Shown here: in pieces, positions 1-30,153 of the stretch
How positions within the stretch are numbered: position 1 is the first letter of the stretch
How the letters are laid out: each line of letters opens with the position of its first letter
Source: Candidatus Methylomirabilis tolerans
Lineage (GTDB): Bacteria; Methylomirabilota; Methylomirabilia; Methylomirabilales; Methylomirabilaceae
Direction of reading: 5' to 3'
Assembly (NCBI GenBank): GCA_019912425.1
Contig: JAIOIU010000083.1
Span: 1 to 38,476, forward strand
DNA: 38,476 nucleotides
Program-made: the position numbers and the translations under genes
The notes under the pieces: generated by a model
What the model saw: only the letters and a program-made list of their open reading frames with translations
Databases searched by the model: none
Told to the model about the DNA's origin: nothing

Positions 1-804
1 ATCTTCCTGGCCGTCATGATGTTCCTGGTGACTGCCCTGATCGGGATCTCCCACAACTTCTACTGGATCGCCAAGCCGACAGGGATCATCGCACTGGGTA
101 GCGTCTTCTCCACCATGCAGGTGTTGCCGCTGCTCCTGATCACCCTGGACGCCTGGAAGATGCGGACGGAGCGGGCGAAGGCCCAGGAAGCCGTTGCCGA
201 GGGCAAGCAGCGCTTCGTGATGGACGGCGTCTGGACATTCATCCTTGCCGTGAACTTCTGGAATATCTTCGGCGCGGGTGTCTTTGGGTCGCTGATCAAT
301 CTGCCTATCGTCAACTACTATGAGCATGGCACCTATCTTACCGGCAACCATGCGCACGCCGCCATGTTCGGCGTCAAGGGGAACATCGCCATTGCCGGTA
401 TGCTGTTTGCGTGTCAGCACCTGTTCCAGCGCTCTGCCTGGAATGAGAAGCTGATCAAGGGTGTGTTCTGGTCCCTGCAGGTCGGCTTAGTGCTGATGAT
501 GATGTTGGACCTGTTCCCGGTCGGTCTGTATCAGGTCGCGACCGTCTTCAAGAAAGGTCTCTGGGCCGCCCGAGCACAGGCGCACGTCACAGATGGTGTG
601 TGGATCACCTTGACGTGGATGCGCACAATCGGTGGCGCGGTCTTCCTGTTCGGCGGTGTTCTGCCTCTCATGTGGTTCATCCTGTCGAGGGCTGGACGGA
701 TGGTTCGTGAGGCCAGCGTCGTCGAAGAGGGTGAGTGGACAATCTACGATAGGGAGAAGGAGAAGGAGCGGGCTGCTTGGGCTGCCGGCGACGAAGCCTT
801 CTAA
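1..804 (+). CDS. nod: Nitric oxide dismutase-like protein (NorZ/qNor family), C-terminal part
   Basis: This is the last 267 residues of a quinol-dependent NO reductase homologue; the 5' end lies outside the window and frame 1 is open from base 1. It is a multi-helix inner-membrane protein. The heme-ligand helix motif NHAHAAMFGV is present (residues about 116-125 of the fragment). Two positions differ from true qNors. The FeB-ligand pair HH reads HN (residues 18-19). The conserved Glu that follows 21 residues after the second His reads Gln (STMQ, residue 40). The conserved PGD near the C-terminus, linked to quinol binding, reads IGG. As I recall, the same kind of ligand changes set the NC10 Nod proteins apart from NO reductases; Nod is proposed to turn 2 NO into N2 and O2. 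A hairpin follows the stop. Family is near certain; the Nod assignment is strong but rests on these residues. Confidence 0.88.
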   Translation: MFLAVMMFLVTALIGISHNFYWIAKPTGIIALGSVFSTMQVLPLLLITLDAWKMRTERAKAQEAVAEGKQRFVMDGVWTFILAVNFWNIFGAGVFGSLINLPIVNYYEHGTYLTGNHAHAAMFGVKGNIAIAGMLFACQHLFQRSAWNEKLIKGVFWSLQVGLVLMMMLDLFPVGLYQVATVFKKGLWAARAQAHVTDGVWITLTWMRTIGGAVFLFGGVLPLMWFILSRAGRMVREASVVEEGEWTIYDREKEKERAAWAAGDEAF

Positions 805-832
805 CCTGATAGGGTAGACACCACTTCGTTTC

Positions 833-872
833 GACACCCCCAGCGCAGCGATAGCGCTGTGCTGGGGGTGTC
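833..872 (+). terminator. Terminator-like hairpin after nod
   Basis: An 18-bp stem (GACACCCCCAGC plus GCAGCG paired with their complements, one G-U wobble) closes an ATAG loop 29 bp after the nod stop. A weakly T-rich GCTTTGTT follows. It probably ends the nod transcript or protects its 3' end. Confidence 0.75.
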
Positions 873-1050
873 GCTTTGTTGGCGCGGACGCTTTATACGT
901 GAGACCTGATCCCAAACAGTACAGTTAAAAAAGCATCATGTTGTTCGTGACCCTTTGGTAACAAGGGGTTAGCGCACCAACCACATATACACGAGTGACA
1001 AAACGATGTACACACAGGTTACCCCTTTAGACGAGAGGAGGGCAATTACG

Positions 1051-1458
1051 ATGCGCGTTCATTTTCTGTCCCGGCTCCGTTGCCAGTGGTTATGCGTGAT
1101 GGTGATGTTGTTCGTCGTGGGGGCCTCTTCCACGTTTGCCGCTGAGCCCAAAGGAACGGTAAGCGCTCAGTCGAGGTACGATTCTGGGTGTGCGCGATGC
1201 CATGGCGCAAGCGGCAAAGGCAATGGACTACAGGCGATGGCGTTGTTTTTTATGTTTAAGATGCCCAACATGGCCGATCCGGCCTATATGCAAACACGGT
1301 CTGATGACGTTCTCTTTCGAGCTATTAAGCAAGGTAAGGCATCGATGCCTTCGTTTGGGCTAAAACTGACCGATCCCGAGATCAAGGACCTGGTGGTCTA
1401 CATCAGAAGCTTTACGAAGGCGCCAGGGTCCGCAAAGCCAGCGGTCACAGCGCACTAA
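1051..1458 (+). CDS. Small exported class I cytochrome c
   Basis: 135-residue monoheme cytochrome c. A hydrophobic signal peptide (about residues 12-31, ending TFA-AEP) sends it to the periplasm. The heme site is CARCH (residues 47-51) and the likely sixth ligand is Met99 in MPSFG, followed by the usual C-terminal helix (DPEIKDLVVYIRSF). I chose the ATG at 1051 rather than the upstream one at 1006 because GAGGAGGG sits 8 bases before it and the signal peptide then has a normal length. It lies about 250 bp downstream of nod and its terminator, so it probably has its own promoter. It could shuttle electrons in nitrogen-oxide respiration; the partner is unknown. Confidence 0.88.
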   Translation: MRVHFLSRLRCQWLCVMVMLFVVGASSTFAAEPKGTVSAQSRYDSGCARCHGASGKGNGLQAMALFFMFKMPNMADPAYMQTRSDDVLFRAIKQGKASMPSFGLKLTDPEIKDLVVYIRSFTKAPGSAKPAVTAH

Positions 1459-1777
1459 ATCTGAAAGCCCTCGAAGCGACCGCTGAGCGTGCAGCGGCTT
1501 AGCGCGTTGATCTTGGCAAGGAGGGCTGTCGAGTTGCTTGCCGACGTCCTGTGCCGCCCCGCCGTGGGGCGGGCGGTGAAAATCCAAGAGGTGATTGTGC
1601 GAGCAGTTGATGGACGACTGAGACGGATGCGACCGCCGGAGTCAGCGTATGTTTCTGGCGAGCGCAGAGAGGATAACAGCTTCTTGGTTATTTTTTCCAC
1701 CGGCCAGCTACATAACACACAGAGTAAGGTCTAATGCGTCCGCATTAGTTCCTCACACGTAGCTTGAGGTGGTGGTG
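1459..1777. other. Intergenic stretch without a recognised gene
   Basis: About 320 bp between the small cytochrome and the pentaheme gene. A weak 6-bp hairpin (CCGCTG/CAGCGG, about 1480-1497) lies shortly after the cytochrome stop. The open frames on both strands lack recognisable protein features. A promoter for the following three-gene unit is expected here, but I see no convincing -35/-10 pair. Confidence 0.5.
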
Positions 1778-2476
1778 ATGCGAGCGATAGCGGGAGGGCC
1801 AAGGAAATGGCAAAACCGCGCCTATTTGACCGGCTTCTGTTTGGGATTTGCGCTCCTGGCGTTTACCGTGCTTCCCGTCGGGGAGTGGTTTCATGCGAAA
1901 GGATCCATGAATACAGGCCACGGCAAACTTGCCTGCGCGGCCTGCCACAAAAACGCACCGGGCAGCTTCCGCCAGCAGATTCAGGCCAACCTGCGCCATG
2001 CCCTTGGTCGGCGCGAAGGGCCCGCCCCCTTCTTCGGACGGCTTCCCGTGGGTAATGCGGACTGTATGGCCTGTCACGAGCGGCCCAATGACCGCCACCC
2101 GGTCTATCGCTTCCTCGAGCCCCGTTTCAGCCAGGCTCGGGAAAAGCTGCGTCCCCATCAGTGCGTCTCCTGCCACGCGGAGCACCAGGGCAGGCGTGTC
2201 ACGTTGGCAGAGACCGGCTATTGCGTGAACTGTCACAAGGACACCCGCCTAAAGAAAGATCCAATCGACGTGTCCCATGCGGATTTGATCGCCGGCAAAC
2301 AATGGGACTCCTGCCTGGGCTGCCACGACTTCCACGGCAACCACATCATGCAGACTGAGAAATCGGTCGACAAGCGAACGCCGACAGAGAAAATCCGCGC
2401 CTATTTTGACGGTGGGCCCTCCCCGTACGGCACAACCCTTCACTACAAAGCAAAACAGGATGGTCAAGATGGCTAA
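1778..2476 (+). CDS. Membrane-anchored pentaheme cytochrome c
   Basis: 232 residues with one N-terminal hydrophobic helix (about 15-36) that looks like an uncleaved anchor, then a periplasmic domain. Five CXXCH heme sites are visible: CAACH 53-57, CMACH 96-100, CVSCH 129-133, CVNCH 149-153 and CLGCH 179-183. Extra His residues are scattered between them, suiting bis-His coordination. Three GTG codons precede the ATG at 1778; I prefer the ATG because a GAGG lies about 8 bases upstream. The next gene starts inside the end of this one, so the two are translationally coupled. The layout resembles multiheme electron-transfer subunits, but I cannot place it in a named enzyme family. It probably accepts electrons from the downstream b-type membrane protein. 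Confidence 0.85.
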   Translation: MRAIAGGPRKWQNRAYLTGFCLGFALLAFTVLPVGEWFHAKGSMNTGHGKLACAACHKNAPGSFRQQIQANLRHALGRREGPAPFFGRLPVGNADCMACHERPNDRHPVYRFLEPRFSQAREKLRPHQCVSCHAEHQGRRVTLAETGYCVNCHKDTRLKKDPIDVSHADLIAGKQWDSCLGCHDFHGNHIMQTEKSVDKRTPTEKIRAYFDGGPSPYGTTLHYKAKQDGQDG

Positions 2477-3338
2477 ACAACACTTCTGGATCGCCTGCCT
2501 GGCGCTGGGCGCCTTAAGCATCTACCTGTTTGTCAGTGCCCCGCCGCCATTGGAAGAGAAGAAGGCCGCCGATGCGGCCATCCCGGTGGAACGGATGTTT
2601 GAGATGCTCAAGGCGGAAAACGACGTGGTGAGGGCGATGTGGACCAAGGAAGTAGTCGGCGCGGGTAAGCAGACCGGCTTGAAATTCGACGAGCGTTGGC
2701 GCGAGGCGGACGTAGAGGCCGGTCCTTTGCCCGCATTGTTCCTGCGTGAGACGGCGAAAAGCCTGGAAAAGAACCCGACGCCGCTCAGCCTGTTCCTGGG
2801 GTCGGACTATCCCGTCAACTCAGCGAACCGCTTCGAGGGGCTACAGTTGGAAAAATTCCAGATGGTCAAGCAAACCCTCAAGCCGCAATTCTTCTTCATG
2901 CCAGACATTCAAATGCAGGTCGCCATGTTCAGTGATGTGGCGGTCGTCGAAGGCTGCATCCAATGCCATAACAAGCACGAACAATCACCCAAGCACGACT
3001 GGAAGCTCAATGATGTGATGGGCGCGACCACGTGGATGTACCCAAGCGGCAGCGTATCCATGGATGAGTTGCTCCGCACGCTCGCCGCCTTACGCCAAAG
3101 CTTCAAGGATGCCTACGAGTCTTATCTTGAAAAGGCGCGGAAATTCGCCAATCCCCCCGCCATTGGCGAACACTGGCCGGCTGAGGGTTATTTCTTGCCG
3201 AGTTCCGAGGTGTTCATGGGGGAAATCGCCAAGCGCACAGCCCCGCACACCTTGGCGGCGCTCAGTTCGCTGGCAAGCAAGCCCCAACCGGGGTCAGCAA
3301 CGAACAAAGAAGGGGGCGCCAATATCGTTACCCGGTAA
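2469..3338 (+). CDS. Tll0287-like (DUF3365) monoheme cytochrome c protein
   Basis: 289 residues with an N-terminal membrane helix (about 6-23) and a periplasmic Tll0287-like heme domain. The heme site is CIQCH (163-167), followed by the family-typical KHDWKLNDVMGA stretch, and residues about 38-160 resemble a helical sensor-like fold. The start at 2469 overlaps the pentaheme gene by 8 bases and has AGGA 8 bases upstream; an ATG at 2460 is the alternative. Tll0287-like domains occur in heme sensors and redox proteins and do not by themselves identify a reaction. Because it sits between a pentaheme cytochrome and a diheme b protein, I infer that it is a redox subunit of one complex rather than a free sensor. 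Confidence 0.82.
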   Translation: MAKQHFWIACLALGALSIYLFVSAPPPLEEKKAADAAIPVERMFEMLKAENDVVRAMWTKEVVGAGKQTGLKFDERWREADVEAGPLPALFLRETAKSLEKNPTPLSLFLGSDYPVNSANRFEGLQLEKFQMVKQTLKPQFFFMPDIQMQVAMFSDVAVVEGCIQCHNKHEQSPKHDWKLNDVMGATTWMYPSGSVSMDELLRTLAALRQSFKDAYESYLEKARKFANPPAIGEHWPAEGYFLPSSEVFMGEIAKRTAPHTLAALSSLASKPQPGSATNKEGGANIVTR

Positions 3339-3351
3339 AGGTGTGGTTTTC

Positions 3352-3879
3352 GTGCAAGACTTCATCCGTCTGAAATCGTTGCTGTCGGTCGTCCTCAAGT
3401 CCGGCTTGCCCGCCAAGGGGTATTTTCGGGTGGGTCTGTTCCTGCTGGCGGCCTTGATCGTCCAGCAATCGACCGGGTGGCAGTGGACCTTGTTGACCGG
3501 ACTGCAAGACGACAATACGTATAAGCTCACCACAGGTTTCGGATTGCTCGCGTTGATCCTGTATCAATGGCGTTTTTCCGTGAAGCGTGCCCAAGGGGAG
3601 CAGCGCAAGGCCGCAACCATGATGGGTCGCCACAAACTGTTCGGCGCCCTGTTTCCGTTGTTTTTCTTGAGCCATTCCCAAATCCTGGGCTATGGCTATC
3701 TCGGGATCCTCAGTCTGACGTTGTTGCTGGCCTTTCTCACCGGCCTGTTCAATTTTCAAATCGTCACAATCCACAAGTCTTGGTACAGGCCGGCGTGGAT
3801 CAGTGCCCATGTCGGATTATCTATGGCGTTGTTGCTGCTCATGGCGTACCACGTCTACATAGACTATGCCTTTAAGTAG
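3352..3879 (+). CDS. Diheme b-type membrane electron-transfer protein
   Basis: 175 residues, almost entirely hydrophobic, with about five membrane helices. Two His pairs each have exactly 13 residues between them: His94/His108 and His153/His167. This spacing is typical of two stacked b hemes crossing a membrane, as in ferric-reductase or cytochrome b type proteins. A further His141 lies in a loop. No FAD- or NAD-binding domain is attached. I chose the GTG at 3352, 10 bases after AAAGG; a GTG at 3343 is in frame but too close to that site. The gene begins within about 14 bp of the preceding stop, so it belongs to the same unit. Expected role: carrying electrons across the membrane between the quinone pool and the two c-type neighbours. 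The direction is unknown. Confidence 0.78.
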   Translation: MQDFIRLKSLLSVVLKSGLPAKGYFRVGLFLLAALIVQQSTGWQWTLLTGLQDDNTYKLTTGFGLLALILYQWRFSVKRAQGEQRKAATMMGRHKLFGALFPLFFLSHSQILGYGYLGILSLTLLLAFLTGLFNFQIVTIHKSWYRPAWISAHVGLSMALLLLMAYHVYIDYAFK

Positions 3880-4057: not shown

Positions 4058-4879
4058 TTACTTACCCCAGTCGCGGGGGTAACGGAAGTCGCGGTCGATG
4101 GTGCGGGCGGAGATCTTGGCGATGAGGGGAGGGCGCCGCTTGTACTGGGAGGCCTGGACCTTGGCGAGAACGGCTCTGACGAATCGTTCGTCGAAGCCGG
4201 CCGCAATAAGATCGGGGATATCGTACCGGCGGTCCACCATCAGGTAGAGGATCCGATCGACCTCCTCATAGGTAAAGCCGAGCTCCGCCTCGTCAGTCTG
4301 CCCAGCCCAGAGGTCACCGCTGGGCGCCTTTTCGACGATGACCTCCGGGATAGCCATGTGGCGCGCCAGTTGCCGGACCTGGGTCTTGTACAGGTCACCC
4401 AGGGGGTTGATGGCGCTGGCCATATCGCCATATAGTGTACCATACCCCAGCAGCAGCTCCGTCTTATTGCTGGTCCCCAGGACCAGGGCCTTGAGCCTGG
4501 CTGAATGGTCGAACAGAATGGTCATTCGCTCGCGAGCCATCTTGTTGCCGCGGCGGACCTGATCCGATTCTGGGAACCGTTCGAAATAGGCGTCCACCAT
4601 CGGCGTGATCTCGATGACGTCCGATTGGATGCGGAGTTGCTTCACCACCAGTTCGGCGTGCTCCCGGCTCTCCGGACTGCTGGTCCGGTACGGCATCAGG
4701 AGGGCCCAAACATTCTCGGCGCCGAGGGCCTTGGCCCCGAGATATGCGGAGAGCGCTGAATCCACCCCGCCGGAAAGTCCAACCACGATACGACTGAACC
4801 CGGCCTTTCGAACTTCGTTGACGATAAACCCGGTCAGGATCTGTTGGACGAATTCGCAGTTCAAGGAGAGATCGATCAT
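4058..4879 (-). CDS. nadE: NAD+ synthetase, ammonia-ligase subunit (stand-alone)
   Basis: 273 residues. It adenylates nicotinic acid adenine dinucleotide and amidates it to NAD+ in the cytoplasm. The PP-loop [20 protein letters not shown] lies near residue 34. [20 protein letters not shown] and the [17 protein letters not shown] region are the conserved substrate loops. It has no N-terminal glutaminase domain. That activity is supplied by the adjacent upstream gene, which it overlaps by 4 bases (ATGA), so the two should be made together. The length matches short ammonia-type enzymes. The 3' end faces the cytochrome b gene across a palindromic repeat. Confidence 0.93.
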
Positions 4880-21372: not shown

Positions 21373-23019
21373 ATGACGACTAGAACAAAGTTGACGGTGT
21401 TAACTGTGGCGCTAGGGATGCTATGGACCGTTCCGGTTCAGGCCCAGCAGGCGCCTGCGGCGCCGGAACTTCCACCGGCTCCACCTCTGGCGCAGGGTGA
21501 GCTTGAGACGGCTAAGCGCATCTACTTTGACCGGTGTGCAGGCTGTCACGGGGTCCTGAGAAAAGGCGCGACAGGCCCGCAGCTTCTGCCCGCGAAAACT
21601 CGCGCTCTCACTACGCCCGTTCTGAAGGCGTTCATCGTGAACGGTACAGGCGGTGGTATGCCGGACTGGGGTCGACAAGGGATTCTCACCGACGCCGAAA
21701 GCGATCTGATGGCCCGCTACATCCAACACGACCCGCCCGTGCCGCCAGAGCTCTCCATGGCGGATATGAAGAAAAGTTGGAACATGACCGTGCCGCCGGA
21801 CAAGCGACCCACAAAGCCCGAACATAACCGTGACTGGAAGAACTTTTTTGCCGTGACCCTCCGCGATGCCGGCCAGGTGGCGATCATCGACGGCGACACC
21901 AAGGAGATCGTCAACACTGTCAAGACGGGGTTTGCGGTCCATATCTCGCGCAGTTCCTTTTCAGGGCGCTACATGTATACGATCGGCCGTGATGGCCGGG
22001 CGACGATGATCGACCTGTGGATGAAGGTTCCGGATAAGGTCGCCGAGGTCAAGCCATGCAGCGATGCGCGCTCCATCGACACGAGCAAGTATAAAGGAAA
22101 GCTCGGCGACTTCACCGACAAGCTGGCCGTCATTGGCTGCTATTGGCCGCCGCAGATCATTGTGTTGGACGGCGCCACGCTGGAACCGAAGACGGTCATC
22201 AGCAGCCGGAGCATGACCTACGATACCATGGAGTATCACCCCGAGCCCCGGGTCGCCTCGATCGTGGCGTCGCACTTCAAGCCCGAGTGGGTTATTAACA
22301 TTAAGGAGACCGGGTTGATCTGGCTGGTCGATTACTCGGATCTCAAGAACCTCAAAATGACCCAGATCCAGGGCGAGAAGTTTTTGCACGACGGCGGCTG
22401 GGATTCCACCAAACGCTACTTCATGGTGGCGGCTAACATGGCGAACAAAGTGGTTGTGATCGACGTCGAGAAAGGCAAACTTGAGGCGATCTTCGAATCC
22501 GGAATCAAACCTCATCCAGGGCGAGGCGCCAACTGGATAGATCCGAAATTCGGTCCGGTGAATGGCACGCCGCATCTTGGCGAAGGCAAGGTCACCGTCT
22601 ACGGAACCGATCCGGCCAAGCACAAGGAGTCTGCCTGGAAAAAGGTGAGGGAGCTCAAGACCCTGGGAGGCGGCGGCCTGTTTATCAAGACGCATCCGAA
22701 GAGCAAAAATGTCTGGGTAGACCACGCCCTGAACGGTGATCCGGCAATTCAAAAGCAAGTTTGCGTCTTCGAGAAAGCGAACATGGACAAAGATCCGAAG
22801 TGCTGGAAGGTTTCGGATAAAGGGCGCGCGGTCCATTTCGAGTTCAACAAGGCCGGGGACGAGGTATGGATAAGCGTGTGGGGGAAGAAAGACGGTCAGA
22901 GCGAGATCGTCGTCTATAATGATAAGACGCTTCAAGAAGTAGCCAGGATCGACGATCCGCGCATCATCACGCCGACAGGCAAGTTTAACGTCTATAACAC
23001 GGTGCACGATATCTATTAA
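21373..23019 (+). CDS. nirS: Cytochrome cd1 nitrite reductase
   Basis: 548 residues. This periplasmic enzyme reduces nitrite to NO. An N-terminal signal peptide (about 1-24, VQA-QQ) leads into a cytochrome c domain with CAGCH (55-59) and Met96 in GGGMPDWG. An eight-bladed d1-heme propeller follows. The heme d1 ligand is His190 (HISRSSFSGRY), and the catalytic pair is His339 (FLHDGGWD) and His381 (PHPGRGANW). Their 42-residue spacing equals the His327/His369 spacing of the Pseudomonas enzyme. GGAGAGGGC precedes the ATG. Downstream lie genes for heme d1 synthesis. All catalytic residues I can check are present, so it should be active. Confidence 0.97.
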   Translation: MTTRTKLTVLTVALGMLWTVPVQAQQAPAAPELPPAPPLAQGELETAKRIYFDRCAGCHGVLRKGATGPQLLPAKTRALTTPVLKAFIVNGTGGGMPDWGRQGILTDAESDLMARYIQHDPPVPPELSMADMKKSWNMTVPPDKRPTKPEHNRDWKNFFAVTLRDAGQVAIIDGDTKEIVNTVKTGFAVHISRSSFSGRYMYTIGRDGRATMIDLWMKVPDKVAEVKPCSDARSIDTSKYKGKLGDFTDKLAVIGCYWPPQIIVLDGATLEPKTVISSRSMTYDTMEYHPEPRVASIVASHFKPEWVINIKETGLIWLVDYSDLKNLKMTQIQGEKFLHDGGWDSTKRYFMVAANMANKVVVIDVEKGKLEAIFESGIKPHPGRGANWIDPKFGPVNGTPHLGEGKVTVYGTDPAKHKESAWKKVRELKTLGGGGLFIKTHPKSKNVWVDHALNGDPAIQKQVCVFEKANMDKDPKCWKVSDKGRAVHFEFNKAGDEVWISVWGKKDGQSEIVVYNDKTLQEVARIDDPRIITPTGKFNVYNTVHDIY

Positions 23020-23046
23020 CCGGGGTTATGTCTGGAGAATCACACC

Positions 23047-23078
23047 TTCGGGGCGAGTCCTTCGGGACTCGCCCCGAA
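23047..23078 (+). terminator. Perfect hairpin between nirS and nirJ
   Basis: A 14-bp perfect stem TTCGGGGCGAGTCC with a TTCG tetraloop, 27 bp after the nirS stop. Only GTCTATT follows, so it may be a weak terminator or a 3' stabiliser. It could lower expression of the biosynthesis genes relative to nirS. Confidence 0.72.
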
Positions 23079-23144
23079 GTCTATTGCGTGGTATGATGAA
23101 TTGCCGATTCATTAATATGCGGGCTAAGGATTGGATTATCGACG

Positions 23145-24362
23145 ATGCTGAGGATTACAGAGCTGTCGTGCGGGGCTATCCAAGGTTCTGAGAAGCCCCT
23201 GAAGCAGAAAGACGGGTCGCCTGCGCTGCCCTGTGCCAAAAAGCCGATAGTCATCTGGAACCTGACAAGGCGCTGCAACCTCCATTGCCTGCACTGCTAC
23301 AGCCTATCACAGGACCGTGCCTACGCCGACGAATTAACAACTGATGAGGGAAAACGGCTGATTGTCGACCTGGCCCGCTATAAGATTCCGGTGCTCATCC
23401 TTTCCGGCGGCGATCCGTTATATCGGGAAGATCTTTACACGCTTGCGGATTACGCCAGAGACCTCGGGGTGCGTTGCGCACTGTCAACGAACGGTACCTT
23501 GATAGATGCCACGGCGGCAAAGAGGCTCCAGCGTTCCGGCATCACCTACGTCGGCGTGAGCCTGGATGGAATCGGGCAGGTACATGATCGCTTTCGCGGA
23601 ATGCAGGGCTCCTTTGCACTGGCGCTACAAGGGCTGCGCCACTCCCGCGATGAAGGGATGAAGGTTGGCATTCGGACCGCTCTTTGCCGTCGGATACTCC
23701 CTGACCTGCCGGCGATCTGTGATATGGCAGAGCAGGAGAGCCTGGATCGTCTCTACTTCTCGCACCTGGTCTATGCGGGACGGGGAGTTGGGCTCATCGA
23801 CGATGATCTTTCGTCTGAGGAAAAGCAAGGTGCGCTTGATTATCTCATACAGAGAGGTGCGGATTTTCATCGCCGCGGCGTAAAGATCGAAATAACTACC
23901 GGCAATAACGATGCCGATGGCGTGTACCTCTATTTGAAGATGCGGCGATCCAATCCTGAACGGGCGCAATCGGTTTTTCGTCTCCTTCAACGTCAAGGGG
24001 GGAATAGCTCCGGCACCTCGCTGGGCAACATCGACAACCTCGGAAACGTCCACGCCGATCCTTTTTGGAGCCATTACTCCCTTGGCAATGTCCGTGAGAG
24101 GAGCTTTGCGGAGATTTGGGAAGATACCACCGATCCAATCATGCATGTGCTGAAAGATCGACACCGAGCCCTCAAGGGCCGATGTGCTCAGTGTCCGTAT
24201 CTTGAGCTGTGTGGTGGCAATTCACGAGTACGAGCGGAGGCGACGACCGGGGATCTGTGGGCTTCCGACCCGGGCTGCTACTTGAGCGACGAGGAGTTGG
24301 GAATCTCATCGGATGGAAAGGAAGACAGCCGTGCCAGTACGCCTTTTTCAGTACGTCACTAA
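23145..24362 (+). CDS. nirJ: Heme d1 biosynthesis radical SAM protein NirJ
   Basis: 405 residues. In heme d1 synthesis NirJ acts on didecarboxysiroheme to remove the propionate side chains and leave carbonyls. Seen: the radical SAM cluster CNLHCLHC (Cys44, 48, 51), LSGGDPLYRED, and a SPASM-type C-terminal cysteine cluster (CAQCPYLELCGGNSR). Position directly after nirS and before nirF supports the role over other SPASM proteins. The ATG at 23145 is accepted although its ribosome site is weak. The 3' end overlaps the nirF start region by about 30 bases, implying coupled translation. Confidence 0.93.
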   Translation: MLRITELSCGAIQGSEKPLKQKDGSPALPCAKKPIVIWNLTRRCNLHCLHCYSLSQDRAYADELTTDEGKRLIVDLARYKIPVLILSGGDPLYREDLYTLADYARDLGVRCALSTNGTLIDATAAKRLQRSGITYVGVSLDGIGQVHDRFRGMQGSFALALQGLRHSRDEGMKVGIRTALCRRILPDLPAICDMAEQESLDRLYFSHLVYAGRGVGLIDDDLSSEEKQGALDYLIQRGADFHRRGVKIEITTGNNDADGVYLYLKMRRSNPERAQSVFRLLQRQGGNSSGTSLGNIDNLGNVHADPFWSHYSLGNVRERSFAEIWEDTTDPIMHVLKDRHRALKGRCAQCPYLELCGGNSRVRAEATTGDLWASDPGCYLSDEELGISSDGKEDSRASTPFSVRH

Positions 24363-25539
24363 GGCTTTTCTCATTCTCTTTCTCTTGACACTCGGCTTGC
24401 CTCTCCAGTCGAGTGCCGATGACCCGCGTTGGGGCACGGCGTCGTTGGTGGTTGTTATCGAACGGGAGACCGGTAGTGTTCTTGTCATCGACTCCTCCCG
24501 CCACGAGCTTCTGGGGCGGATTTCCGGGCTCGGTAACCTCACCCATGCGACGGTGAAATTTTCCCCTGACGCCCGCTATGCCTACGTCATCGGTCGTACG
24601 GGCGAAGTCTCTAAGATCGACCTCCTAACCCTGAAGCTTGTCAAGCATGTGAATGCAGGAAAATTGTCCGTCGGCGGTGTCATCAGCCAGGATGGCAAGT
24701 ATATAGCCCTCAGTAATTATGTCCCCGGCGAGGTGCGCATTCTGAATGCCGATACGCTGGAACTGGTGAAAACGATTCCGGCGCTGTACACGGATGCGAG
24801 CGGAAAGGAGCTTCCGTCACGAGTCGTGGGACTGGTCGACGCGCCAGGGAATCTGCTTGTGTTTTCCTTGATGGATGCCAACAGTATATGGGTGGTGGAT
24901 GCGGGGAAAAAAGAGTTTCCGGTGATCCGAAAGTTTACGAATATTGGGAAGGAGCCGTACGATGCCCTGATTACTCCGGACGGGCGCTACTATCTTGTAG
25001 GCTTGTTAGGCTCTGACTGGATGGGACTCCTCGACACATGGAAGCTCGATCGGGTTACTCCAATTCTTGCGGAGCAAGGTAAGGGTTCGGAGGTCCCTCT
25101 GTGGAAGATTCCGCATCTGAAAGGCTGGGCGCTCACTGGAAGGCTGGCTTTTCTTCCCGCGCTGAAGCGCGAGGTTGCCTTGGTCTATTCAGCGCTCGAC
25201 TGGACGCCACTTACGCCCATACCGATCAGCGGCACCGCGCTCTACACCGTGGTGCGGCCCGACGGACGCCAGGTGTGGGTGGATATTATCGGTAAAAATG
25301 GGGACCTGATCGATGTGATCGACGTTGAGAGCATGAAGGTCGTCAAAACGCTCAATCCCGGACCCGGGGCTACACACCCCCAGTTCACACCCAAAGGAGA
25401 AGCCGCATACGTCTCTCTCATGGACGGCGGCAAGGTGGTTGTCTACGATACGGCGACCTTTAAGGTGCTGAAGGAGTTCCAGGCGGATCATCCCTCCGGG
25501 ATCTTTTTTACTAACCGAGCACACAAATTCGGGATGTGA
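24331..25539 (+). CDS. nirF: Heme d1 biosynthesis protein NirF
   Basis: About 402 residues, a d1-type beta-propeller protein required for the last steps of heme d1 formation in the periplasm. A signal peptide (about residues 5-30, ending SSADD) is followed by repeated propeller blades with motifs such as FSPDARYAYVIGRTGEVSKIDL and YDALITPDGRYYLVGLLGSDW. It ends in AFHKF-like FTNRAHKFGM. It lacks the cytochrome c domain of NirS. I prefer the GTG at 24331, with AAGGAAG six bases upstream; an ATG at 24313 is the alternative. It lies between nirJ and napA, whose start is 49 bp downstream. Confidence 0.92.
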   Translation: MPVRLFQYVTKAFLILFLLTLGLPLQSSADDPRWGTASLVVVIERETGSVLVIDSSRHELLGRISGLGNLTHATVKFSPDARYAYVIGRTGEVSKIDLLTLKLVKHVNAGKLSVGGVISQDGKYIALSNYVPGEVRILNADTLELVKTIPALYTDASGKELPSRVVGLVDAPGNLLVFSLMDANSIWVVDAGKKEFPVIRKFTNIGKEPYDALITPDGRYYLVGLLGSDWMGLLDTWKLDRVTPILAEQGKGSEVPLWKIPHLKGWALTGRLAFLPALKREVALVYSALDWTPLTPIPISGTALYTVVRPDGRQVWVDIIGKNGDLIDVIDVESMKVVKTLNPGPGATHPQFTPKGEAAYVSLMDGGKVVVYDTATFKVLKEFQADHPSGIFFTNRAHKFGM

Positions 25540-25588
25540 GAGATTACGGTGCCGGTTTTCGACTTAATCCGGACAGCAGAGGCCGATT

Positions 25589-27958
25589 ATGAAACTTTCT
25601 CGTAGAGAGCTGTTAAAGACCTTGGTGGGAGCAAGCGCAGCAATCATTTCCTCCCCTGATGTCTTACTTCCTAGCCCTGAGGGTCTCGCGGAGGCTGCGG
25701 AGACGGCGGTAGAGGCCTGGAAGAAAAGCCCCTGTCGCTTCTGTGGCGTCGGATGCGGCGTGCTGGTAGGTCTTCAGGAAGGTAAAGTGGTGGCCGTCAA
25801 GGGTGATCCGGAGGCCCCAGTCAATCGAGGCCTTCTCTGCATCAAGGGCTATAGTTTACCCAAAATTCTCTATGGTCCTGACCGCTATAGTGTACCGCTG
25901 CTTCGCCAAGGCAACAAGTTTGTCAAGATCTCTTGGAGCCAGGCGTTGGATATCATGGCCTCCAAGTTTAAAGAGACTATCCAACAGCATGGTCCGGAGT
26001 CGGTAGCGGTGTACTTCTCGGGTCAAACAACCATCTTTGAAGGCTACGCCATCAATAAATTGATGAAGGCTGGGATAGGCTCCAACAACGTTGAGAGCAA
26101 TGCGCGCCTCTGCATGGCCTCGGCCGTGACCGGTTTCTACTCGACCTTCGGCATGGATGAGCCGATGGGGTGTTACGACGATTTCGAGTTGACCGATACC
26201 TTTTTTGTCTGGGGCTCAAACTTCGCCGAGATGCATCCGATCCTCTACTCGCGGATGGTTGAGCGGAAGCACCAGGATTCCAACGTCAAGGTTGTCAGTC
26301 TACAAACCTATCTGAACCGTAGCACCGATGAACCCGCAGATATCGTAGCTATTTTCAAGCCTCACTCAGATCTCGCTATTGCGAATGCTATGGCCCATAT
26401 CATCGTGAAAGAGGGGCTCGCAAACGAGGCGTTTATTCAGCAGCATGTCACCTTTAAGAAGGGGCTGACAGGGATCGGCTATGGTATGGAAGACAACTTT
26501 GAGTATGGCGGGGCCTCGGAAACCAGTTGGAAGACGTACAAACCTTTTGCCGATAAGGGCCAGCCGATCAGTTTCGAGGAGTACAAGCAATTCCTGGAAA
26601 CCTACACACCGGAATATGCGGAAAAACTCTCCGGCGTCCCGGCTGACACGATCCGTCAGATTGCTCGGCTCTTGGGCGATCCAAAGCGTAAGGCCGTGTC
26701 CTGTTGGACGATGGGCTTTAATCAGCACGTACGCGGTACCTGGATCAACAACCTTGTCTATAACCTCCACCTTCTTACCGGAAAAATTGCCGAGCCCGGC
26801 AACGGTCCCTTATCGCTGACCGGGCAGCCTTCAGCGTGCGGGACGACGCGGGAGGTAGGCGTGCTGTCCCACACGCTTCCTGGGGGCATGTCTATCGCGA
26901 ATCCGGAGCATCGGAAAAAAACCGCGCACATCTGGAATGTTCCGGTTGAGAAAATTTCACCCAGACCAGGGTACCACACCATGGAGATGTTTCGTGCGTT
27001 GGATCGTGGTGATATCAAGGTCATCTGGATCAACACTACCAACCCTTTTCAGACGCTTCCCCATGTGAGTCGCTATCGCAGGGGTGCGCGAAAAGGGGGC
27101 AAGCGGTTTGTTATTGTCTCCGATGTGTATCCCAGCGAAACCGCTCGGCACGCCGATCTCATCCTTCCGTCGGCCATGTGGGTCGAGAAGGAGGGGATGT
27201 TCGGCAACACTGAGCGGCGCACGCAGCACTGGTTTAAGATGGTAGACCCGCCTGGCGAAGCGAAGGACGATCTCTGGCAGATCGTCGAGTTGGCCAAGCG
27301 TCTTGATTTGGGACACCTGTTCGCCTACGGGGAGGAGCCTTTACAAAAGGCGCTCTTTGAGGAGTATCGAAAATTCGGCCAGGGGTCCGGAAAAGACCTC
27401 GCACCCTATGATGTGTATGCGAAGGTTCGAGGCGGGCTACGCTGGCCGGTTGTCGAGGGAAAAGAAACACGATGGCGTTACAGGGAGGGGTTCGACCCGT
27501 ACGTCAAGAAGGGCGAGGGCATCCGTTTTTACGGCCAGCCTGATGGTCGTGCTGTGGTCTGGGCGCGCCCTTACGAGCCGCCGGCCGAGCAGCCCGATGC
27601 AAAATATCCTTTGTGGCTCACGACGGGCCGCGTCCTTGAACACTGGCATACAGGGACCATTACGCGAAGAGTTCTTGAGCTTCACCGTGCCGTCCCCTTC
27701 GCTGCCGTATGGATCAATCCCGAGGACGCGGGTGCCTTGGGAATCAAGGCTGGGGACTCAGTCCGTGTCCAATCGCGCCGCGGCGAGATCGTCACAAAGG
27801 CTCAATTAGACGGAAGAAACACGGTCCCGAAAGGAGTGATTTTTGTTCCTTTCTTCGACGAAAATGTTTTAATAAATTTGGTCACACTTGATGCCTACGA
27901 TCCTATTTCCAAGCAGCCGGACTTTAAAAAGTGTGCGGTTCGGATCGAGAAGGCGTGA
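25589..27958 (+). CDS. napA: Periplasmic nitrate reductase catalytic subunit
   Basis: 789 residues. A molybdopterin guanine dinucleotide enzyme that reduces nitrate to nitrite. A Tat-type signal (SRRELLK, residues 4-10) marks export as a folded protein. The 4Fe-4S site is Cys49, Cys52, Cys56 and Cys84 (CX2CX3CX27C), followed by Lys86. Cys175 in NARLCMASAV is the likely Mo ligand. The C-terminal domain shows TTGRVLEHWHTGT. The length is near other NapA proteins. napB follows after 6 bp. The usual napC, napD, napG and napH are absent from the window, so the electron donor and Tat chaperone must be elsewhere. A related assimilatory enzyme is unlikely because of the napB partner. Confidence 0.94.
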   Translation: MKLSRRELLKTLVGASAAIISSPDVLLPSPEGLAEAAETAVEAWKKSPCRFCGVGCGVLVGLQEGKVVAVKGDPEAPVNRGLLCIKGYSLPKILYGPDRYSVPLLRQGNKFVKISWSQALDIMASKFKETIQQHGPESVAVYFSGQTTIFEGYAINKLMKAGIGSNNVESNARLCMASAVTGFYSTFGMDEPMGCYDDFELTDTFFVWGSNFAEMHPILYSRMVERKHQDSNVKVVSLQTYLNRSTDEPADIVAIFKPHSDLAIANAMAHIIVKEGLANEAFIQQHVTFKKGLTGIGYGMEDNFEYGGASETSWKTYKPFADKGQPISFEEYKQFLETYTPEYAEKLSGVPADTIRQIARLLGDPKRKAVSCWTMGFNQHVRGTWINNLVYNLHLLTGKIAEPGNGPLSLTGQPSACGTTREVGVLSHTLPGGMSIANPEHRKKTAHIWNVPVEKISPRPGYHTMEMFRALDRGDIKVIWINTTNPFQTLPHVSRYRRGARKGGKRFVIVSDVYPSETARHADLILPSAMWVEKEGMFGNTERRTQHWFKMVDPPGEAKDDLWQIVELAKRLDLGHLFAYGEEPLQKALFEEYRKFGQGSGKDLAPYDVYAKVRGGLRWPVVEGKETRWRYREGFDPYVKKGEGIRFYGQPDGRAVVWARPYEPPAEQPDAKYPLWLTTGRVLEHWHTGTITRRVLELHRAVPFAAVWINPEDAGALGIKAGDSVRVQSRRGEIVTKAQLDGRNTVPKGVIFVPFFDENVLINLVTLDAYDPISKQPDFKKCAVRIEKA

Positions 27959-27964
27959 GGGATC

Positions 27965-28297
27965 ATGATGAAGCCGCTTACGAGATTCTGCTTCCGGCTT
28001 TTCTTCTTGGGCTTATTGGCCGCTCTGAGCGTCAGTACGCTTGTTGAGCCGGTTGCTGCCCAACAAGGCAGTAAGCGACTGCCTCGTGCCTATGAAGGCG
28101 CTCCGCCCTTAATCCCCCACGATGCGGAAGCGAGGAAAGGCGTGTGCCTGGCATGTCACGAATTCGGGATCGCCGGGGCTCCGATTGTCCCGCATCCGAC
28201 GCGTAATCATTTTTGCTTGCAGTGTCATGTTGGCCAGGACCTTTCGGTGAAAGCATTCTCGTCCGTTTCGTCTCAGGAAGAGAAGAGACCAGAGTGA
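27965..28297 (+). CDS. napB: Nitrate reductase diheme cytochrome subunit
   Basis: 110 residues. It passes electrons to NapA in the periplasm. A signal peptide (about 1-32, PVAA-QQ) is followed by PPLIPHDAE, a NapB signature, and two heme sites: CLACH (61-65) and CLQCH (84-88). It is short because the C-terminal part after CHVGQD is only about 20 residues. The start may be either of two adjacent ATGs (27965, 27968). It is the last gene before a repeat-bearing gap and the NirDL gene. Confidence 0.92.
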   Translation: MMKPLTRFCFRLFFLGLLAALSVSTLVEPVAAQQGSKRLPRAYEGAPPLIPHDAEARKGVCLACHEFGIAGAPIVPHPTRNHFCLQCHVGQDLSVKAFSSVSSQEEKRPE

Positions 28298-28317
28298 GGG
28301 GATCCCTAGACGAGAGC

Positions 28318-28391
28318 GATCAGCACTCAGCGGTCAGTTCCGGATAAACCCCCCGTGCCCCCCATTGATAAAGGGGGTTGGGGGGGATTTG
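28318..28391. repeat. Half 'atcagc' repeat followed by C-run/G-run palindrome
   Basis: GATCAGCACTCAGCGGTCAG (28318-28337) resembles one arm of the 6571 and 31716 repeats. Next to it AACCCCCCGTGCCCCCCATT with AAAGGGGGTTGGGGGGGATT (28347-28391) is a full palindrome of the priA-inserted type. It separates napB from nirDL. Confidence 0.75.
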
Positions 28392-28487
28392 CTTGAGGTA
28401 TGGGTGTGTCACCGGGCATGATCATTCCTGTCATGATTACTGGCCGGGCGCATAGGTTTGTTCTGGATATAGCATGGAGGGATGTTA

Positions 28488-29573
28488 GTGCCCGAGATTG
28501 ACGCAATTGATCGTAACCTGCTGGATGCGGTGCAGGCCGGTATCCCACTTGTGGAGTGCCCGTACCGCGCCCTCGGCGAAGGCCTGGGACTGACCGAGGG
28601 TGATGTGCTTGAGCGCATTGCCAGACTCAAAGCCGACAGCATTATCCGGAACATCGGCGCTATCTTCGATACGTCGCGCCTTGGCTATCGGTCATCGCTG
28701 GTCGGCTTTAGACTGCGCGAGGAGTGTGTTGACGAAGCGGCTGTCCTGGTTAACGCTCATCCGGGGGTAAGCCACAATTACCTGCGCTCGTTCGCATTTT
28801 CCAACGACTACAGGCCCGCTGCGTATTGCCCGTACAATATGTGGTTTACCCTCGCGGTTGAGCCTGAGAGCCGGCTTGGACTCGAGGACAGCGTGGCCGT
28901 GTTAGCACGGGATACGAAGGCCGAGGCGGCACGTCTCTTTCCAGCGCTCAGAGTTTTTAAGATCGGGGTGCGTCTGGATATGGACGCTGAAGCTGCAGGC
29001 GCACGCAAGGAAGCGGGCAATTTCTTCACAGGCAACGGTGGCGCCGCGGCCGGGTATTGCTTAAATCCTACTGAGCGCCGGATCGTGCAGATTCTGCAAC
29101 ATGATCTGGCGCTTGTCGAGAAGCCGTTTTGCGAGATTGCGCGGCAATGCGGACTGGACGTTGAGACGTTATTAGCCGGTGCTCGGGAGCTTCTGCAGCG
29201 GAAGATCATGCGCCGCTTTGCTGCGATCCTCAACCACCGCAAGGCCGGCTACACCGGAAACGTGATGGCGGCGTGGCCGGTATCTGAAGAAAAGGTAGAG
29301 GCCATAGGACTTCAAATGGCACAGTTCCGAGCGGTGAGCCACTGCTATCAACGCCCCGCCTATCCGGAGTGGCCGTTTACACTCTTTACGATGGTTCATC
29401 AGAAGAGCCGTGAAGCGTGTGAGGAGACGGTGGCGGCGATCAGTCGCGAGACAGGAATCAGTGACTATGCGATGCTGTGGACGACGCGAGAATTCAAAAA
29501 AGTACGGTTGAAATATTTCACCGAAGATTATGCGGCCTGGGAGGAGCAAACTGCCACCCGGGTTCCTCTGTAA
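28488..29573 (+). CDS. nirDL: Siroheme decarboxylase, fused NirD/L and NirG/H type
   Basis: 361 residues made of two AsnC/Lrp-like halves in tandem (about 1-160 and 185-340). Each half has a winged-helix N-terminus and a ligand-binding domain. GAIFDTSRLGYRSSLVGF in the first half and AAILNHRKAGYTGNVMAAW in the second are corresponding segments. The family removes two carboxyl groups from siroheme on the heme d1 route. I chose the GTG at 28488 because GGAGG is 7 bases upstream; the ATG at 28482 is only 1 base away. It completes the nirS-J-F set. NirE and NirN are not seen here. Confidence 0.9.
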   Translation: MPEIDAIDRNLLDAVQAGIPLVECPYRALGEGLGLTEGDVLERIARLKADSIIRNIGAIFDTSRLGYRSSLVGFRLREECVDEAAVLVNAHPGVSHNYLRSFAFSNDYRPAAYCPYNMWFTLAVEPESRLGLEDSVAVLARDTKAEAARLFPALRVFKIGVRLDMDAEAAGARKEAGNFFTGNGGAAAGYCLNPTERRIVQILQHDLALVEKPFCEIARQCGLDVETLLAGARELLQRKIMRRFAAILNHRKAGYTGNVMAAWPVSEEKVEAIGLQMAQFRAVSHCYQRPAYPEWPFTLFTMVHQKSREACEETVAAISRETGISDYAMLWTTREFKKVRLKYFTEDYAAWEEQTATRVPL

Positions 29574-29637
29574 GCTTTTGAGTAGCCTGAGTGATCAGGC
29601 CGAAAGCGATGGGCCTGCGCTAGGAGTCATACTTTTT

Positions 29638-30153
29638 ATTGACCAGTTGAAGGCACACCTCTTCAATGGAACGCTTTGGCCAGACTTCAGTGTACTTCCG
29701 TCTTCGCTGCGCCCCACCTTGACCTTTCATGCACTGTCGGAAGGTCGTCCGCACCAGATAGGCCGGTACGAGGTAACGGCTGTAGGCGTACACCACACGG
29801 TTGAGGCGGCGGGGTACATGATCTCCGATGGCGCCTCGTCTATCCTCTATCAGGGGGACAGCGGTCCGACGACCGAGATCTGGCGTCTGGCCAACCGGAC
29901 GGCTAAACTGGACGCTATCATTGTCGAGACTTCATTTCCGAACCGATTTGGCGAGCGTGCTGTCCGGACTGGCCACCTGACACCGGAATTGTTACGTGCC
30001 GAGCTGGCCCAACTCACGGTTCAGGCATCAGTCTATGCTCAGCACATGAAGCCCCAATACATCTCGGAAATCGTGAGCGAGCTTACCGCGCTTTCCGAGC
30101 CGCCGGTTTTACCTCTCGACCAGGGGAAAATGTACACCTTCGGTGCCGCTTAA
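29638..30153 (+). pseudogene. 5'-truncated class II cyclic-nucleotide phosphodiesterase-like gene
   Basis: The translation from IDQLKAHLFNGTLWPDF onward, with HHTVEAAGYMI, YQGDSGPT, IVETSFPNR and GHLTPELL, resembles the C-terminal two thirds of metallo-beta-lactamase-fold class II phosphodiesterase-like proteins. The N-terminal HxHxDH metal-binding segment is missing. Upstream sequence (about 29577-29637) is open but unrelated. An ATG at 29530 in this frame lies inside the nirDL coding sequence. It is therefore likely a remnant that cannot bind its metals fully. Confidence in the family is good; in non-function moderate. Confidence 0.72.

Follow-up and report, generated by a model that had tools for sequence, protein, structure and literature searches.

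Three genes for a pentaheme cytochrome c, a Cache heme protein and a di-heme cytochrome b-like membrane protein in Methylomirabilis and Cytophagales

Multiheme cytochromes can receive electrons from inner-membrane quinol dehydrogenases with b and c hemes, such as CbcL, NrfBCD and NapC/NrfH. The fold of the Cache heme domain is that of a sensor, and the heme of Tll0287 is ligated by Cys and His (PMC12889525), with Cys as second heme ligand being a trait of Tll0287 and the P. putida subtype only. In a 2026 preprint (PMC12889525), i) a Cache-heme protein without the axial Cys, part of a HAMP-linked sensor, bound NO tightly with a slow off-rate, ii) a stand-alone Cache-heme protein with the Cys behaved as a redox protein that bound NO weakly and released it fast, and iii) NO release was also fast in the Cys-to-Ala variant of the latter.

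The window analysed here is the whole 38,476-nucleotide contig JAIOIU010000083.1 of Candidatus Methylomirabilis tolerans. An earlier note on it had pointed to three consecutive genes next to nod as an undescribed heme electron-transfer module. We found that the three genes are kept together in two distant phyla, and we regard them as probably encoding an electron-transfer system without a name of its own that acts in the chemistry of nitrogen oxides, perhaps of nitric oxide, because of their predicted eight-heme anatomy, their recurrence in distant bacteria and their presence, twice, inside nitrate-use clusters. As the note had supposed, no name for the trio was found in the literature; coverage of the literature was partial, and the absence of a name is not proof of novelty.

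The three proteins and their candidate heme ligands

The first gene (1769..2476, plus strand) encodes a pentaheme cytochrome c with an N-terminal membrane anchor. Its CxxCH motifs lie at residues 56, 99, 132, 152 and 182, and five such motifs occurred in none of 20,000 shuffles of the protein, which also scores above the Pfam cut-off for Cytochrome_C7, Paired_CXXCH_1 and Cytochrom_c3_2. The five motifs and six further His residues (51, 110, 139, 170, 189 and 192) are invariant among 18 homologues. Profile searches gave, besides these c7, c3 and paired-CxxCH families, a weak similarity to NrfB/DmsE-type carriers and no match to NapC/NrfH. The start proposed for the gene before, ATG at 1778, is not conserved (two relatives have ACG), so an upstream GTG (e.g. 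at 1769 or 1772) may be used instead.

The second gene (2469..3338, plus strand) encodes a monoheme protein of the Tll0287/sCache_heme family (PF11845, E 1.1e-8; 36.1 bits against a Pfam cut-off of 24.1, with 28.4 bits for the copy from Flammeovirga), with a signal or anchor N-terminus. This agrees with the earlier assignment. Its single heme motif (C163/C166/H167) is invariant in 17 sequences, and a second His three residues past CxxCH, giving CxxCHNxH, is conserved in the 17 homologues. Beyond CxxCH and outside the signal/lipobox region, none of the 17 sequences has a Cys, which leaves the mature protein with no axial one. A C-terminal extension of about 100 residues past the Pfam domain is common to both phyla. 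The protein is stand-alone and devoid of the Cys, so that binding of NO is a reasonable conjecture and no more than that; the weak NO binding of the stand-alone protein of the preprint, where the tight binder was HAMP-linked, counts against the nitrogen-oxide role proposed below. A chemoreceptor with a Cache-heme domain (PF11845-like match) is found in other Methylomirabilis genomes, together with a second CxxCH protein of similar size in the same chemotaxis cluster (contig L045, 8098-8526 and 10338-11129).

The third gene (3352..3879, plus strand; alternative start 3343) encodes a membrane protein in which the pattern His-x13-His occurs exactly twice, at residues 94/108 and 153/167, an arrangement already pointed out before. 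Two or more such pairs occurred in 0.3% of shuffles, the four residues are the only invariant His across 18 homologues, and they are the only His residues of any kind in the Flammeovirga protein. A chance origin of the CxxCH and His patterns was rejected on the basis of the shuffles. Two His pairs 14 residues apart on two helices correspond to the pattern of di-heme transmembrane cytochromes b, with the helices taken from hydropathy and a low-confidence model. Of the five helices claimed previously, the model does contain five long ones following a short N-terminal helix, but hydropathy by itself, in a simple scan, supports just two to four of them. Loop Lys/Arg residues alternate such that, by the positive-inside rule, the inner side of the membrane would hold H94 and H153 and the outer side H108 and H167. 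No Pfam family was matched above cut-off by the membrane protein of the window; below the curated cut-offs, its relatives matched Ni_hydr_CYTB (best E 7.7e-4, one relative), DUF4405 (6 of 7) and Ferric_reduct (the Flammeovirga copy).

The first two genes overlap by 8 bases (ATG at 2469) and the third starts 4–13 bases past the end of the second, in accordance with their description as overlapping or nearly so. In alignments of 17–18 sequences across both phyla, the invariant metal-ligand candidates of the unit are five CxxCH plus six His, one CxxCHNxH, and four membrane His, and b and c hemes are the only cofactors to be expected inside it, as had been proposed. The three proteins are correlated in their pairwise distances (0.97–0.99), which mainly reflects the separation of the two phyla. 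AlphaFold2 models of the membrane and Tll0287-like proteins, predicted as single chains, were poor (mean pLDDT 53 and 35) because the input alignments, of six close sequences, were shallow, and PDB sequence searches gave chance matches only.

Distribution in Methylomirabilis and relation to nod

The ORF at 16..804 (plus strand), cut by the contig start, encodes the C-terminal third of a putative NO dismutase (PF00115, E 9e-27) and lies outside the unit. It shows the Nod-type His-to-Asn change at the metal site (GISHNFYW, compared with GTGHHWYW in the true qNor of the same genome), and HN in place of HH is a signature of Nod (PMC3413370). Between nod and the trio are an intrinsic terminator (832..873, plus strand; 19-bp stem, 95% complementary, with the tail CTTTGTT), a gene for a monoheme cytochrome c (1006..1458, plus strand; PF13442, E 8.5e-13) that is not part of the trio elsewhere, and a probable promoter/operator region (1670..1768, plus strand). 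The right border of the insertion site is the convergent nadE (4058..4879, minus strand).

Seven of the 15 genomes in a family-wide Methylomirabilis set have all three genes side by side. Among the 95 genomes of the phylum that were searched, the membrane protein was confined to these seven, and the pentaheme protein gave just two marginal matches beyond them. Six of the seven have the order nod, cytochrome c, pentaheme, Tll0287-like protein, membrane protein, nadE. In the seventh, G002, nod is followed directly by nadE, and the trio lies on a different contig, remote from nod; the extra cytochrome c does not accompany it, no match having been obtained around the relocated genes. The same direct nod-nadE junction is present in G006, G013 and G007 (99%, 99% and 80% complete, respectively), where the module was found nowhere in the genome. 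The monoheme cytochrome c is present at all six nod-linked module loci and absent between nod and nadE at the four sites read that lack the trio. These comparisons indicate that a four-gene block is either present or absent at this site, with three of the four genes being constant.

The last 100 nt upstream of the trio are 69–78% identical to those of five relatives, with 78% for the relocated G002 copy, and the preceding 100 nt share 54–62% identity with the same relatives. A perfect inverted repeat, CTAATGCG-TC-CGCATTAG, at 1731-1748, is partly retained in relatives and is a possible operator. An Fnr/Dnr box was searched for upstream of the trio and none was found.

Could the trio take part in NO dismutation, as an accessory that supplies electrons to Nod or takes them up from it? 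All seven trio genomes carry nod, which adjoins the trio in six of them; however, nod is present in 12 of the 15 family genomes, so its occurrence in all seven is not significant by itself, and five of the genomes with nod lack the trio. Dismutation, moreover, requires no net electrons. A strong hairpin terminator follows nod in all nine loci folded, whether or not the module is present, and has been retained despite many sequence changes, so the trio is probably outside the nod transcript. The G002 copy, and the copies in Cytophagales with no nod nearby (see below), are likewise at odds with membership in a nod operon. We therefore consider a part in dismutation very unlikely, and an obligate partnership with Nod, also considered, is largely refuted by the same observations. 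The position next to nod given in the earlier note thus applies to six genomes, but the specific tie to nod that it implied is not borne out.

The trio in Cytophagales and its genomic neighbours

All three proteins are also encoded on a plasmid of Flammeovirga kamogawensis (Bacteroidota), at 50, 41 and 35% identity; the genes there run hemA, globin, Tll0287-like protein, membrane protein, FAD/NAD/2Fe-2S reductase, pentaheme. These matches were reached through a plasmid collection and then through the order around genome G362, the label Cytophagales being the order given in the Flammeovirga record. The trio, with about 30–47% identity to that of Methylomirabilis, was detected in 12 of 390 genomes searched, from 6 genera and 4 families; one of the 12 (G763) is the F. 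kamogawensis replicon itself, and the spread is a lower bound of at least 12 genomes. In all 12 the membrane and Tll0287-like proteins accompany the pentaheme, with the contig of G712 ending inside the Tll0287-like gene. Conservation of the three genes elsewhere, on which the earlier note had made its proposal depend, extends across two phyla, and since they are kept together in several gene arrangements, selection keeps the set and not the site. Other searches returned nothing further: the membrane-protein profile matched 0 of 395 genomes in a Bacteroidota sample, the membrane or pentaheme profile gave no match outside the genus among 290 relatives, the Methylomirabilis Tll0287-like alignment, of which only two peptide patterns were used, matched the genus alone among genome contigs, and scans of viral contigs gave no matches.

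In most of the Cytophagales loci, genes for a globin and a flavin/2Fe-2S reductase adjoin the trio. The earlier statement that no flavin domain is present thus holds within the window but not for the neighbourhood of most relatives. In G801 the globin is placed at the end of the locus, and in G843 and G936 a CcmF/NrfE-type heme lyase lies between the reductase and the pentaheme. G775 has the order of the window (pentaheme, Tll0287-like protein, membrane protein; contig L092, 8763-9473, 7952-8773 and 7472-7951), with no globin or reductase adjoining. The N-terminus of its Tll0287-like protein resembles the Methylomirabilis one. Together, the order and the N-terminus are a hint of two module subtypes.

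Several of these neighbours bear on nitrogen oxides. Two of the loci are set within nitrate/nitrite-assimilation clusters. Around the module of G936 are NirB, NirD, a NarX/NarQ-like kinase and its response regulator, molybdopterin genes, an Fnr-type regulator, ATPases of a nitrate ABC transporter, NarK and a NasA-like reductase; that of G843 adjoins NirB, NirD, an Fnr-type regulator, moeA and a NasA-NirB-like fusion. For the Flammeovirga-type, G801 and G775 loci, the flanking stretches that were read contain no nitrogen-oxide genes. In the window, NirS, a NirJ-like protein, a cytochrome d1 protein and NapA are encoded about 17–24 kb downstream of the trio, and taken with the G936 and G843 clusters they make nitrogen oxides a shared theme of the two phyla, though not of every locus. 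The segment concerned (21373-30153) encodes a NirS-like cytochrome c-d1 protein, a NirJ-like radical SAM protein, a second cytochrome d1 protein, NapA and a fused siroheme decarboxylase. The partners in Cytophagales (hemA, the flavohemoprotein-type globin and the reductase) and the CcmF/NrfE-type lyase of two loci also favour a nitrogen-oxide role, as does the place of the trio behind nod in the window, and the globin, for which NCBIfam gave the globin portion of NO-inducible flavohemoprotein as the sole match, points toward NO too.

The same neighbourhoods can be read differently. The trio might be a general module passing electrons from quinol (or NAD(P)H) to the periplasm with no special tie to NO, a stand-in for NapC/NrfH that feeds, for instance, NapAB. 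A di-heme cytochrome b with an anchored multiheme cytochrome c is the architecture of an inner-membrane electron exporter, the pentaheme weakly resembles NrfB/DmsE-type carriers, and napA (25589-27958) adjoins an ORF for a NapB-like diheme protein (27965-28297) with no napC-like ORF among those adjoining it in the window. On the other hand, the NasA/NirB enzymes of the nitrate clusters in Cytophagales are assimilatory, of cytoplasmic type, and need no periplasmic donor; a general exporter leaves the constant Cache heme protein unexplained; and relatives bearing nod manage without the module. We hold this to be the strongest of the alternatives, but still an unlikely one.

Histidine kinases and an Fnr-type regulator near some copies raise a further alternative, that of a redox or NO sensor in which the Cache heme would bind NO or sense redox state, the b and c hemes would keep it reduced and a nearby regulator would receive the output. 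The sensor fold of the domain (PMC12889525) would suit such a function, as would the closeness of the stretch CxxCHNxH..SP..D.K..D.MG to the Cache heme of the Methylomirabilis chemoreceptor, yet all three proteins are devoid of a signalling domain, no regulator constantly adjoins the trio, and the wiring of seven hemes would be excessive for a sensor. This alternative seems improbable, more so than the general exporter.

Proposed function and comparison with known systems

That the trio transfers electrons across the membrane is, judging from its anatomy, likely; that it has a nitrogen-oxide role as well, as suggested by the neighbours and the 2026 preprint, stands at about even chances. In the scheme we favour, two b hemes would be stacked in the membrane protein, one between His94 and His153 on the cytoplasmic side and one between His108 and His167 on the periplasmic side, and would carry electrons across the membrane as the usual two-heme wire. 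The anchored pentaheme would accept them in the periplasm and pass them to the single heme c of the Cache protein, whose distal side, having no Cys ligand, may bind a small molecule. The electron source in Methylomirabilis would most likely be the quinol pool. In most Cytophagales it would most likely be NAD(P)H, by way of the neighbouring ferredoxin reductase. A direct NAD(P)H feed was considered for Methylomirabilis and dropped, homologues of the reductase being absent, partial or weak in the trio genomes.

Such a membrane-anchored b/c-heme complex delivering electrons to the Cache heme would reduce, detoxify or respond to NO (or nitrite) in the periplasm, a proposal that we rate as likely to be right as wrong. 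A bolder version, in which the trio is a periplasmic NO-processing enzyme of NC10 and Cytophagales with a catalytic Cache heme, i.e. an NO reductase or detoxifier unrelated to the heme-copper NORs, we consider unlikely, and the putative catalysis at the Cache heme is by itself similarly doubtful. If the favoured scheme is correct, two distant phyla have retained an unnamed transmembrane module of eight hemes, more than once next to nitrogen-oxide genes; stand-alone Cache-heme proteins would gain defined partners; and bacteria that make oxygen from NO would have a candidate for NO or electron handling. As F. kamogawensis is an isolate, the module would be testable in culture there, which is hard in Methylomirabilis.

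Like CbcL, NrfBCD and NapC/NrfH, the trio couples a membrane redox protein to a periplasmic multiheme cytochrome c. It differs from them in having a separate membrane protein of 175 residues and a Cache heme subunit and in lacking an iron-sulfur subunit, and it gave no match above cut-off to these families. The membrane protein shares with Ni_hydr_CYTB (b561), DUF4405 and Ferric_reduct (NOX/MsrQ type) the two His pairs on two helices with one helix between, along with weak profile matches, but it is short and its matches stay under the curated cut-offs; in Cytophagales, the separate FAD/NAD reductase that accompanies it is reminiscent of the ferric reductases. With a flavohemoprotein-type globin and an FAD/NAD reductase, the Cytophagales loci also look like a flavohemoglobin (NO dioxygenase) that has been split, although the parts are separate proteins with an extra 2Fe-2S domain and none is found beside the Methylomirabilis trio. 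With the Tll0287/sCache_heme family (PF11845; e.g. Tll0287, GSU0582 and GSU0935), the Cache protein shares the family match, one CxxCH heme and export. Unlike Tll0287, it has no axial Cys, carries about 100 additional C-terminal residues and is constantly accompanied by a pentaheme and a di-heme b-like partner.
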